DNA of 64,000 bases from Syntrophaceae bacterium (GTDB lineage: Bacteria; Desulfobacterota; Syntrophia; Syntrophales; PHBD01), in NCBI GenBank assembly GCA_013177825.1, contig JABLXX010000010.1:62001-126000 (forward strand). The letters are read 5' to 3'. The notes beneath the pieces are model-generated. The model searched no databases. It saw only the letters and a list, made by a program, of their open reading frames with translations, and was not told the origin of the DNA. Below are positions 44,961 through 49,345 of the stretch, one piece after another (position 1 is the first letter of the stretch; every line of letters starts with the position of its first letter). The translations under genes were made by a program, and so were the position numbers.

Positions 44961-45296
44961 TTACTTCTTGCTTTTGGCGACTGCTTTTTTTGCCGGTGCC
45001 TTTGGCGCCGCTGCCGCTTTTTTTGCGGCGGGTTTTTTTGCGGCAGGCTTGGCAGCGGGCTTGGCGGCGGCCTTCTTGGCTACGGCCTTCTTCGCGGCGG
45101 GTGCAGCTTTGGCAGCGGCGGCCTTGGCGGCGGGCTTCGGCGCCGCTTTTTTCGCGACGACGGCCTTTGCCTTGTTCATGGGTTTCCCCTGGCAGCACAG
45201 AATCTCTCCCACGCCGGTTCTGCCAAACTCATCCACCACAACGACCAAGCCGCAAACTTCGCAACGGAATTTATCTCCCTTTTTTGCCTTTGCCAT
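44961..45296 (-). CDS. Desulforedoxin-like domain fused to a histone H1-like Lys/Ala-rich tail
   Basis: A 111-residue protein in two parts. Residues 7-41 resemble desulforedoxin / the N-terminal desulfoferrodoxin domain: FRCEVCGLVVVVDEFG then EILCCQGKPM, with Cys12, Cys15, Cys34 and Cys35 in the C-x2-C ... C-C pattern that binds Fe(Cys)4 (or Zn). Residues 42-111 are almost only Lys, Ala and Pro with AAKK-type repeats, as in bacterial histone H1-like DNA-binding proteins. This suggests a nucleoid- or nucleic-acid-bound metal protein. It has an AAGGAGG ribosome site, its own promoter at 45364-45391 and a terminator, so it is probably monocistronic. Confidence 0.83.
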   Translation of the reverse strand: MAKAKKGDKFRCEVCGLVVVVDEFGRTGVGEILCCQGKPMNKAKAVVAKKAAPKPAAKAAAAKAAPAAKKAVAKKAAAKPAAKPAAKKPAAKKAAAAPKAPAKKAVAKSKK

Positions 45297-46951: not shown

Positions 46952-48376
46952 CTATTTTGCTTTCTGATTTTTCAGGGTGATGAAGAAGTTGCTTTCTCCA
47001 CGGCGAAAGAGGAACAGCAGCGAGTCTTCCTCCTTCACGCCCGCAGTTGCCTGCAGATAATCCTTCATCGACCGGATCTCCGTCCGGTTCACCCGGAGAA
47101 TAATGTCCTGCGGCTGAATTCCCGCTTCCTCGGCAGGGCTCCCCTCCGCCACCCGGGTCACCACGACGCCGGTCTTATCGGCCATTCCAAAGTGGCGCGC
47201 CATTTCCGGGGTGATCTCCTGGACGGTCATTCCGAACCGCTCGGTGCCCTTGCCGATGCGGGCGATTTCCCGGGCATCCTTGCGCTCACCGACCGTCGCT
47301 TCGACGGTTCTTTCCCGGCCGTCCCGGATGATCTTGAGGGCCACCCTCCGGCCCACCTGGAGGGTTGCCACGAGACGCAGGAGATCATGGGTGTTGCGGA
47401 CGGCCTTTCCGCCGACCTCGACGATCAAATCGCCCGTCTTGATGCCCGCCCGGTCCGCCGGCTCGCCCGGGAAGACGTCTCCCACCAGGGCCCCCTGCTT
47501 CCCGGTGATTTTCAGGCTGGCGGCCATCTCATCCGTCAGGTCCTGAACGGAGACGCCGAGCCAGCCGCGGGTGACCTTGCCCTTCGTCTTCAGGTCGTTG
47601 TAGATTTCCTTCGCCATGTTGACGGGGACGGCAAAGCCGATTCCCTGCCCCTGGGCGACAATGGCCGTATTGATCCCCACGACTTCGCCCTTCAGGTTGA
47701 ACAGCGGGCCGCCGGAGTTGCCCGGATTGATGGAGGCGTCCGTCTGGATGAATTCGTCGTAGGGACCCGCTCCGATGGAGCGCGCCTTGGCACTGACAAT
47801 CCCCGCCGTCACGGTCTGTTCGAGTCCGAAGGGATTTCCGATGGCGAGGACCCAGTCACCGACCCTGAGCTTGTCGGAATCACCCAGGAGGGCCGTCGGC
47901 AGGTCACCATTCGGCTTGATCTTGATGAGGGCGATGTCCGTGTTGGCGTCCCGGCCAACGATCTCCGCCGGGTATTCCTTCCCGCCGGCCAGTTTTACCA
48001 GGATCTTGTCCGCTCCGGCGATTACGTGGTTGTTGGTGAAGATGTAGCCGTCCCGGGAGATGATGAATCCCGAGCCGAGTCCCCGCTGGCGGTATTCCCG
48101 GTTCGGCTGGTCGCCGAAGAAACGCCGGTAGAAGTCATTGCCGAAGGGGTTCTGGGGCATGGCGCCGAACGGGCCGGTGCCGCCGCTTTTCACGGTTTTC
48201 GTTGTGCTGATGTTGACCACGGCCGGGCTGAGCCGTTCCGCCAGATCGGCGAAACCGCCGGACACAGCCCCGGCCGGCGCAGAAGCCGCGTCGACCGTTG
48301 CGGCAGGAATGCCGGGGGCGAAGAGAATCGCTCCGGCCAGGAACAGGCAGCACAGGAAATTTCTTTTGGTACGCAT
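46952..48376 (-). CDS. degP: Do/HtrA-family periplasmic serine endopeptidase
   Basis: A 474-residue protein with a signal peptide (MRTKRNFLCCLFLAGAILFA, cleavage probably near residue 30). The protease domain has the full triad: His117 in TNNHVIAG, Asp147 in TDIALIK and Ser221 in GNSGGPL. Two PDZ domains follow (starting about residues 275 and 385; GWLGVSVQDLTDEM and FGMTVQEITPEMARHFG). It degrades or refolds misfolded envelope proteins. A GGGAGG ribosome site precedes the ATG by 6 bases. Whether it is DegP- or DegQ-like cannot be told. Confidence 0.94.
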   Translation of the reverse strand: MRTKRNFLCCLFLAGAILFAPGIPAATVDAASAPAGAVSGGFADLAERLSPAVVNISTTKTVKSGGTGPFGAMPQNPFGNDFYRRFFGDQPNREYRQRGLGSGFIISRDGYIFTNNHVIAGADKILVKLAGGKEYPAEIVGRDANTDIALIKIKPNGDLPTALLGDSDKLRVGDWVLAIGNPFGLEQTVTAGIVSAKARSIGAGPYDEFIQTDASINPGNSGGPLFNLKGEVVGINTAIVAQGQGIGFAVPVNMAKEIYNDLKTKGKVTRGWLGVSVQDLTDEMAASLKITGKQGALVGDVFPGEPADRAGIKTGDLIVEVGGKAVRNTHDLLRLVATLQVGRRVALKIIRDGRERTVEATVGERKDAREIARIGKGTERFGMTVQEITPEMARHFGMADKTGVVVTRVAEGSPAEEAGIQPQDIILRVNRTEIRSMKDYLQATAGVKEEDSLLFLFRRGESNFFITLKNQKAK

Positions 48377-48463
48377 GTCAAGCCTCCCTGGGGTTTTGAT
48401 TTTCTTCCGCGGCCGGTGCGGCCGCGACGGCTTCCATCCATATCATATTCCGTTCCGGATCCC

Positions 48464-48515
48464 AAAAAAAACAGCCCCCGCGGGGGATCGAGCCGATCCA
48501 TTCCCCGCGGAGGCT
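48464..48515 (-). terminator. Strong intrinsic terminator after the selenoprotein gene
   Basis: On the minus strand a 13-bp stem (AGCCTCCGCGGGG with CCCCGCGGGGGCT, one G-T pair) and a 17-base loop precede eight T. It lies about 115 bases after the stop of the UGA-containing gene and before the HtrA gene, separating the two transcripts. Confidence 0.82.
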
Positions 48516-48630
48516 TTGTTCCGGATTGCCGATTATCCCGCTGTCTGCGGGAAGATCATACTTATGCGGTTCCCTTCTTCGGTCCTGCCAGTATCCGTCT
48601 CCGGACCCGCCTCCGGCGGATCTACACGCC

Positions 48631-48840
48631 TCAAGAGCCCCCGTAACCGACGCTGATCTTTTCCCCGTCCACGATCACCGGAACCTTGCGGGTTCCTCCG
48701 GTCAGCGCCAGCATTTCACGGAGCGCCTGAGGATCGGATCTCACGTCCATGTAGACCGCCCGGTTTCCGAAGGCCTCCCTGGCCCGGTCCGTGTACGGTC
48801 AACCCGCCTTGCCGAAGATGCGCACGGGCTGTCCGGCCAT
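48631..48840 (-). CDS. UGA-containing selenoprotein: glutaredoxin-like Sec-Pro-Tyr-Thr protein (UXX-star type)
   Basis: Reading from ATG 48840 gives 69 residues if the in-frame TGA at 48801-48799 is read as selenocysteine. Sec14 sits in GKAG-Sec-PYTDRA, the exact place of the redox-active Cys in glutaredoxin-like folds, and the frame continues with VYMDVRSDPQAL, KVPVIVDGEK and GYGGS, a thioredoxin-fold pattern with the cis-Pro (VPVIV). It fits what I recall as the UXX-star (seleno)protein family. A purine-rich GGAGGAAGGAG ribosome site lies 7 bases before the ATG, and a bSECIS-like hairpin follows the UGA. It starts 19 bases after the cyclic-nucleotide-binding gene, so the two are probably one operon. 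If the cell lacks SelB it would be a broken gene instead. Confidence 0.82.
48767..48787 (-). promoter_or_regulatory. Candidate bacterial SECIS hairpin
   Basis: Starting 14 bases after the U of the UGA codon, CCG-GGCC pairs with GGCC-UU-CGG (two-base UU bulge), enclosing the five-base loop AGGGA. The apical loop begins 21 bases downstream, with G at the second loop position, which agrees with the published bacterial SECIS rules as I remember them. Folding has not been computed. Confidence 0.5.
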
Positions 48841-48859
48841 CGTTCCGCTCCTTCCTCCG

Positions 48860-49345
48860 TCAGTACTCGGAAAGGTGGGAAAGCCCCCGCTCGCCCACGA
48901 GGATGATCCGCGTGTGATTGAGCCGCGATGCCAGGACCTTGCCGATGGATTTCATGACTTTGAAGCCCATCGTACAGTCCTCTTCCATCAACTCCCGGAG
49001 CTTCGGCGCGTCGATGGCGATAAAGTCCGATTCGTCGATGCATAGGGCTCCCAGGGTATAGATGAACGGGTTCACCACGGCAGACCAGCCCATGGACTCT
49101 CCCTTGGTGATGATGTCCAGCGTTACCTGGAGCGGCGGCTTGTGGGGCCCCACGTAGCTGTCCAGGACCAGGATGATCTTGCCCTTGGTTACGAGAAAGA
49201 GGTGTGCCGCGGGATCGCCTTTCTTGTACATCTGGGCTCCCGCCGGGTAGGCCTGTTCTTCTGCGATCGTTGTAAGTTTTTCCAGTTCCGCATCGGTGAA
49301 CTCTGAGAAGAAATCAAACTGTTTCAACTGGCCGGCTGAAATCAT
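48860..49345 (-). CDS. Cyclic nucleotide-binding-domain protein without DNA-binding domain
   Basis: A 161-residue protein containing a single cNMP-binding-like domain: FDFFSEFTDAELEKLTTIAEEQAYPAGAQMYKKGDPAAHLFLVTKGKI, then the phosphate-cassette region (ITKGESMGWSAVV), in which the usual FGE-x-AL and R-x-A residues are replaced. Binding of cAMP is therefore uncertain. There is no helix-turn-helix at the C-terminus. The start at 49345 has an AAAGGAGG ribosome site 8 bases upstream. Likely senses a ligand and modulates a partner; it is directly followed by the selenoprotein gene. Confidence 0.82.
   Translation of the reverse strand: MISAGQLKQFDFFSEFTDAELEKLTTIAEEQAYPAGAQMYKKGDPAAHLFLVTKGKIILVLDSYVGPHKPPLQVTLDIITKGESMGWSAVVNPFIYTLGALCIDESDFIAIDAPKLRELMEEDCTMGFKVMKSIGKVLASRLNHTRIILVGERGLSHLSEY

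Follow-up and report, generated by a model that had tools for sequence, protein, structure and literature searches.

A small glutaredoxin-like selenoprotein gene with two selenocysteine codons and a SECIS-like hairpin beyond its stop codon in a Syntrophaceae bacterium

Introduction

Does a TGA inside a very small reading frame end translation, or is it read as selenocysteine (Sec), and where does the protein then end? This question is raised by a locus on the minus strand of a 64,000-nucleotide stretch of DNA from a Syntrophaceae bacterium (the window, meaning the whole stretch that was analysed). The first-pass annotation, made from the letters alone, had proposed a hidden gene for a complete 69-residue glutaredoxin-like, thioredoxin-fold protein, with Sec at TGA 48801-48799 in the context GKAG-U-PYT and a stop 55 codons later. 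We find that the flagged gene is real, and that it encodes a tiny glutaredoxin-like selenoprotein of a catalogued family with two selenocysteines.

In the parts available to us, a 2026 review (PMC13188914) lists this family as “Distant Grx-like protein 1”, with the motif UxxT and two Sec, and suggests that the Sec of UXX-star proteins may bind metal or unknown substrates. The same parts place bacterial SECIS elements in coding regions and give a rule for them: the apical loop is small, has G as its first or second base, frequently with G or U next, and lies 16–37 nt after the UGA. In engineered E. coli constructs, an untranslated bacterial-type SECIS is described as serving a C-terminal Sec (PMC3834832, available in part). 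The available portion of the main text of PMC2398784 does not name the family under the label searched.

Gene structure and family membership

The gene and its signals are as follows; genes of the UxxT type are those with Thr or Ser at the last motif place.

48622..48840, minus strand: UXX-star family 1 selenoprotein gene, 72 residues plus TAG, two Sec codons (translation with TGA as Sec; NF041114, 103 bits, profile positions 1-70 of 70)
48799..48801, minus strand: TGA, codon 14, Sec at the redox position, U-P-Y-T (Sec 68, Cys 8 in 76 UxxT-type genes)
48631..48633, minus strand: TGA, codon 70, Sec of the C-terminal Sec-Gly-Val-stop (TGA in 75/75 readable UxxT-type genes)
48622..48624, minus strand: TAG, true stop, codon 73 (direct reading and translation; TAA in the same-genus relative L010)
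48848..48858, minus strand: purine-rich ribosome-binding site GGAGGAAGGAG (direct reading of the sequence)

Translated from the ATG at 48840, the product reads MAGQPVRIFGKAGUPYTDRAREAFGNRAVYMDVRSDPQALREMLALTGGTRKVPVIVDGEKISVGYGGSUGV, with Sec in the contexts GKAG-Sec14-PYT and GYGGS-Sec70-GV. The purine-rich ribosome site (48858-48848), the frame open beyond TGA 48801-48799, and the cis-Pro loop (an R-K-V-P-V motif with the expected cis-Pro) all agree with what had been proposed. The proposed length does not: the TGA that had been taken for the stop, at 48633-48631, is the second Sec codon, and the frame continues through TGA-GGC-GTG-TAG (48633-48622), the Sec-x-x-stop ending of UXX-star family 1, to give 72 residues ending Sec-Gly-Val. 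The corrected end adds three residues, among them the best conserved residue of the protein.

The 72-residue form matches the NCBIfam model NF041114, “UXX-star selenoprotein family 1”, at 103 bits over its whole length (curated cut-off 72 bits), while a form ending at codon 70 scores 98.8 bits (E 1.5e-28), the last two residues raising the score to 103. In addition, the Pfam Glutaredoxin model (PF00462) is matched at E 1.8e-7 with 31.7 bits (curated cut-off 22.9), in keeping with the original fold assignment, and codons 14-17, U-P-Y-T, form the UxxT redox motif with Sec. The window gene shares with UXX-star family 1 the profile match over the full length, the UxxT motif, both Sec, and the Sec-x-x-stop ending; there is no essential difference, and the gene is a member of this already catalogued family, which has curated NCBIfam models and is in print. 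It was therefore “hidden” for ordinary gene calling only.

An AlphaFold model built with 14 sequences (pLDDT 94.2, pTM 0.83) has the order strand, helix, strand, helix, strand, strand, with two-residue strand segments at 52-53, immediately before Pro54, and at 70-71. The complete Glutaredoxin (PF00462) fold with its C-terminal helix was not found in the model, which has four strands and two helices only; the product as modelled is a shortened glutaredoxin-like protein, with a confident glutaredoxin fold without the last helix. Foldseek ranked glutaredoxins and NrdH-redoxins at the top for this model (best E 2.3e-3, with no match at E 1e-3 or better), and a sequence profile search of the product found glutaredoxins at a best E of 8.1e-6. 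Fold, active-site place, and cis-Pro loop are common to the window protein and to glutaredoxins and NrdH-redoxins (PF00462; Grx3, NrdH), but the window protein lacks the last helix, has a motif without Cys, and carries Sec at residues 14 and 70, the latter close to the C-terminus. YruB-type glutaredoxins (TIGR02196) and the weak matches L190 and L193-L196 are similar in length and core sequence, yet their motif is CxxC-like, a C-terminal helix region is present, and the C-terminal Sec codon is missing.

Could both TGAs be nonsense mutations in a decaying or spurious frame? Within the window, nothing but the TGAs themselves points that way, and one relative, L067, looks broken by a TAG. The 103-bit match to NF041114 argues against decay, as does the same-genus relative L010, which keeps the frame and both TGAs, and whose 33 nucleotide differences from the window gene fall 4/3/26 on codon positions 1/2/3; judged from these sequences, the frame of the window gene is under protein-level selection. 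An alignment search at E 1e-12 also found the gene's relatives in 109 of the 395 genomes sampled from the phylum, and the comparative data already contradict decay, which we consider hardly conceivable.

Selenocysteine-decoding machinery

If the TGAs are read as Sec, the organism should carry the machinery for it, as the first-pass annotation implied. In the window’s own genome (4.2 Mb, 25 contigs), we found tRNA-Sec at 73.8 bits with the anticodon TCA, selB at 363 bits, selA at 605.7 bits, and selD at 391.7 bits, each above its curated cut-off and together forming a Sec-decoding system; a second tRNA-Sec search match scored 47.9 against a cut-off of 47. In 14 control genomes, the tRNA-Sec search matched in all 14 and exceeded the cut-off in five, selB and selD matched in all 14 and exceeded it in two each, and selA matched in four and exceeded it in one. 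The selD of the same genome (L050, C2:171816-172742) has an in-frame TGA of its own in the context RGAG-U-ACK; this is a second, independent Sec-type gene, and by its sequence, the selenophosphate synthetase itself looks like a selenoprotein.

Across the class, selA was present in 137 of 155 genomes, and in 91 of the 92 of high quality. Because selA is nearly universal there, its association with UXX-star genes over the class is uninformative. NF041114 matched in 109 of the 155 genomes and above the cut-off in 65, seven of which are without selA, and all seven are listed as less than 90% complete.

None of the observations that the first-pass annotation had named as counting against Sec decoding (no selB or selC, no homologues aligning through the UGA, a recent nonsense mutation) was made: selA, selB, selC, and selD are all in the genome, and relatives align through the TGA with Sec or Cys at position 14. 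TGA 48801-48799 is almost certainly decoded as Sec, and Sec decoding of the gene is well supported by computation, through homology, machinery, codon conservation, covariation, and fold. Gene and machinery together confirm a working Sec system in the lineage.

Codon conservation among homologues

Codon usage was counted in fetched loci, which are a subset of all matches. After removal of identical cores, 117 sequences were tabulated, of which 88 are of the UxxT type, 76 of them from genome searches and 12 from a related-locus search whose pattern required Cys at position 14. That search returned 18 named loci; four repeated cores already in the set, and another two, L129 and L130, lack the C-terminal codon, being ordinary CPYC glutaredoxins. 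The 12 retained loci are from Pelotomaculum and other Firmicutes, Nitrospirae, Planctomycetes and Brocadiia, Acidobacteria, Deltaproteobacteria, and a Proteobacterium.

Of the 76 genes from genome searches, 68 have Sec at position 14 and 8 have Cys. All 75 of these genes whose C-terminal codon could be read have TGA there, never TAA or TAG; the same codon is TGA in 12/12 of the loci from the Cys14 search as well. The residues after it are mostly Gly-Val, and the terminator two codons on is mixed (TGA 38, TAA 25, TAG 12; n = 75). Only Sec14 had been recognised in the first-pass annotation; it is the C-terminal Sec that is invariant.

These counts bear directly on whether TGA14 alone encodes Sec, with TGA70 an ordinary stop after 69 residues. 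TGA is indeed the commonest terminator in UxxT-type genes (38/75), and the form ending at codon 70 already lies above the NF041114 cut-off. A plain stop would, however, show the same mixture at codon 70 as is seen two codons later, so an invariable TGA beside a mixed terminator argues that codon 70 is not a plain stop, as do the mostly Gly-Val residues past it and the covarying hairpin at SECIS distance that follows (see below). We rejected the 69-residue end on the TGA usage and that hairpin, and regard it as very improbable.

Exceptions were sought among the 38 matches of the E 1e-12 search that show no or one TGA; two of these (G060, G067) are the tabulated L074 and L095, and the tails of the other 36 were read by eye. 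In none of these 36 was the C-terminal Sec replaced by Cys. Nineteen end Sec-x-x-stop, five have three residues after the TGA (L166, L169, L170, L172, L186), five have longer tails (L162, L163, L181-L183), one (L188) runs off its contig, five are ordinary CxxC-like glutaredoxins without the C-terminal Sec codon (L190, L193-L196), and one (L191) is degenerate; one of the 36, L176, has Gly at position 14. From the codons, then, the two sites are asymmetric: Cys can take the place of Sec14, and no UxxT-type gene examined has Cys in place of the C-terminal Sec. We did not meet this asymmetry in the literature passages covered.

A further 29 tabulated relatives are outside the UxxT type, and none of the 20 UxxC rows among them (UPFC, UPHC, UPYC) has a U-x-x-stop ending, which leaves a C-terminal Sec unproven for this sister type. 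Many have a tail such as GGIPLFGGTU with a stop some codons later, and their last TGA may end the protein or may encode Sec ahead of a longer tail. In the UPFC sister type (L076, L079, L081-L088, L090, L093-L095, L099, L100, and others), the last TGA is conserved and the stop is not two codons on.

Two minor observations concern the fate of such genes. One locus, L134, holds two tandem UXX-star genes (G507:C16:100059-100271 and 100484-100696) with two TGAs in each. Some relatives look broken, namely L067, with an internal TAG directly before its C-terminal codon, the degenerate copy L191, and L192, with a frame change, and the gene thus seems dispensable at times.

SECIS-like hairpins

Two SECIS-like hairpins, absent from the first-pass annotation, accompany the Sec codons:

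48771..48785, minus strand: SECIS-like hairpin for codon 14, loop AGGGA, within the coding region (family comparison)
48604..48622, minus strand: SECIS-like hairpin for codon 70, 8 bp stem, loop GGA (z -2.29; 8/8 pairs vary on both sides, 44 aligned genes)

In line with the published loop and distance rule, the loops begin 18 nt past UGA14 and 16 nt past UGA70. The first base of the codon 70 hairpin is the final G of the TAG stop, which puts the hairpin in the 3′ untranslated region. An Rfam scan of 48500-48900 gave no match up to E 5 at either hairpin, a result that is uninformative because bacterial SECIS elements are very variable, according to the parts available of PMC13188914.

The hairpin at the C-terminal site is regular across the family. 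Stems of at least 5 pairs are present in 91 of 98 rows, with loops mostly of 3-5 nt, and the distance from the UGA to the middle of the hairpin is 23.9 ± 1.5 nt; in most rows, the loop has G first and then G or T. Covariation was assessed in 44 of 47 order-level rows, with the window replacing its own copy (L009) and the near-duplicates L011, L036, and L062 left out. In this set, 85.2% of cells are paired, compared with 65.0% after shuffling, and all eight pairs change on both sides, compared with 6.5 in shuffles (12 of 500 shuffles reach 8). The cells changed on both sides number 85 against 29.9 in shuffles (0/500 reach 85), and versions with a slid partner reach at most 49.7% paired and at most 26 such cells. 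By comparison, 269 further stop codons of these loci are followed by weaker stems (nominal p 3e-36); they end open frames of at least 200 codons, among which antisense frames may be included. Tested one row at a time, 37 of the 47 hairpins are better than shuffles at the 0.05 level; the 10 that are not include the same-genus L010.

This hairpin might also be a transcription terminator or another 3′ element rather than a SECIS. Its place past the stop would suit such an element, whereas the published rule puts bacterial SECIS elements in coding regions (PMC13188914, in the parts available). In the window, no run of T follows it, and a separate hairpin with a T run stands about 100 bases further on (read by eye). 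The loop, mostly G and then G or T, and the narrow range of distances from the UGA in the 91 of 98 rows with a stem of at least 5 pairs speak against a terminator, and on these grounds and the missing T run, we rejected the terminator reading, which seems most unlikely.

The hairpin after codon 14 needs the family for its recognition: taken alone, the window copy does not differ significantly from shuffles (z -0.55). Across 39 of 41 Sec14 rows, a hairpin with the loop AGGTC, AGGG-, or similar has 97.4% of cells paired compared with 92.9 shuffled, and only 2/5 pairs change on both sides, a slight covariation because the codons are conserved, which accounts for most of the pairing. More telling is the comparison by residue, in which the rows are related and the Cys set is partly from other phyla: 60 of 72 Sec14 genes can form all five stem pairs, compared with 6 of 30 that have Cys or Gly at position 14 (nominal p 3e-11 for pair counts), and GG occupies loop positions 2-3 in 63/72 against 9/30. 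The commonest loop is AGGTC (44/72).

Proposed decoding and its significance

Taken as a whole, the gene is very probably a 72-residue member of UXX-star family 1 with two Sec, each UGA directed by its own SECIS-like hairpin. At both UGA14 and UGA70, the ribosome would insert Sec by means of SelB and tRNA-Sec, under the direction of a separate bacterial-type SECIS for each codon, with a loop beginning 16–18 nt downstream; the predicted SECIS of UGA14 would lie inside the coding region, and that of UGA70 past the stop codon, unlike the usual bacterial arrangement. A similar arrangement is known from the available parts of a study on rat thioredoxin reductase engineered in E. coli (PMC3834832), in which a C-terminal Sec is inserted via a SECIS beyond the stop, as in the window gene, and the construct’s SECIS loop, AGGTC, is the commonest codon 14 loop in the Sec14 genes examined. 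The UXX-star arrangement differs in being natural, and in having a second Sec upstream in the same small gene.

The 3′-UTR SECIS and the Sec/Cys asymmetry of UXX-star family 1 are described here. We think it probable that UXX-star is a natural bacterial system with a dedicated 3′-UTR SECIS, that Sec-UGA and stop-UGA stand nine bases apart before the same hairpin in 38 of 75 genes, and that the invariant C-terminal Sec marks a selenium-only function for which Cys is no substitute. If this is true, such Sec-UGA/stop-UGA pairs are a natural test of the precision with which SelB measures distance. The family is catalogued; what remains of interest is that the C-terminal Sec does not vary, that its SECIS would lie past the stop, and that Sec and stop UGAs stand so close together.

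Function and genomic neighbourhood

Sec14 would open helix 1 in the model, and Sec70 would be the third residue from the C-terminal end. We infer that the strand segments 52-53 and 70-71 pair, and that the tail folds back beside the cis-Pro loop, near residue 14. Given that Thr17 leaves the U-P-Y-T motif without a resolving Cys, Sec70 is the natural partner, and our tentative first choice is a diselenide or selenenylsulphide redox pair, Sec14-Sec70 or Cys14-Sec70.

Two genes flank the selenoprotein gene on its own strand:

48860..49345, minus strand: stand-alone cyclic-nucleotide-binding-domain protein, upstream (PF00027; just upstream in 28/47 loci)
46952..48376, minus strand: HtrA/DegP-type protease, downstream (Trypsin_2 and PDZ domains; in 14/47 loci)

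Neighbours were counted by targeted searches in 47 order-level loci with flanks of 1.5 or 3 kb, some of them truncated where the contig stops, which makes the counts lower bounds. A divergent NlpC/P60 protein is found in at least 29 of the 47 loci, a rubrerythrin-like protein downstream in at least 20, an arginine-decarboxylase-like protein, presumably that labelled PvlArgDC, in at least 20, and an alpha/beta hydrolase in at least 19. This set hints at a stress role and proves nothing.

With the same gene and decoding, residues 14 and 70 may instead be a ligand pair, both selenols binding soft metals or metalloids (mercury, arsenic, copper) rather than forming a redox pair. A metal-binding role for Sec in UXX-star proteins is suggested in the available parts of PMC13188914, and of the UxxT-type genes examined, none replaces the C-terminal Sec with Cys. 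The glutaredoxin fold with cis-Pro in the AlphaFold model, the exchange of Sec and Cys at the catalytic place, and the rubrerythrin-like neighbour in 20 of 47 loci speak against metal ligands, and no metal-resistance genes were seen among the named neighbours of the 47 loci. Metal binding is our second choice, a possibility that we hold with some doubt.

In a same-genus relative (L070:2468-2935), a rubrerythrin-like gene stands between the selenoprotein gene and HtrA, and in the window, these two genes are only 245 bases apart (48377-48621), so the rubrerythrin-like gene has been lost or moved here. Further along the minus strand of the window, a small open frame (44961-45296) has, as read by eye, a Cys-pair N-terminus and a long Ala/Lys-rich, histone-H1-like tail.
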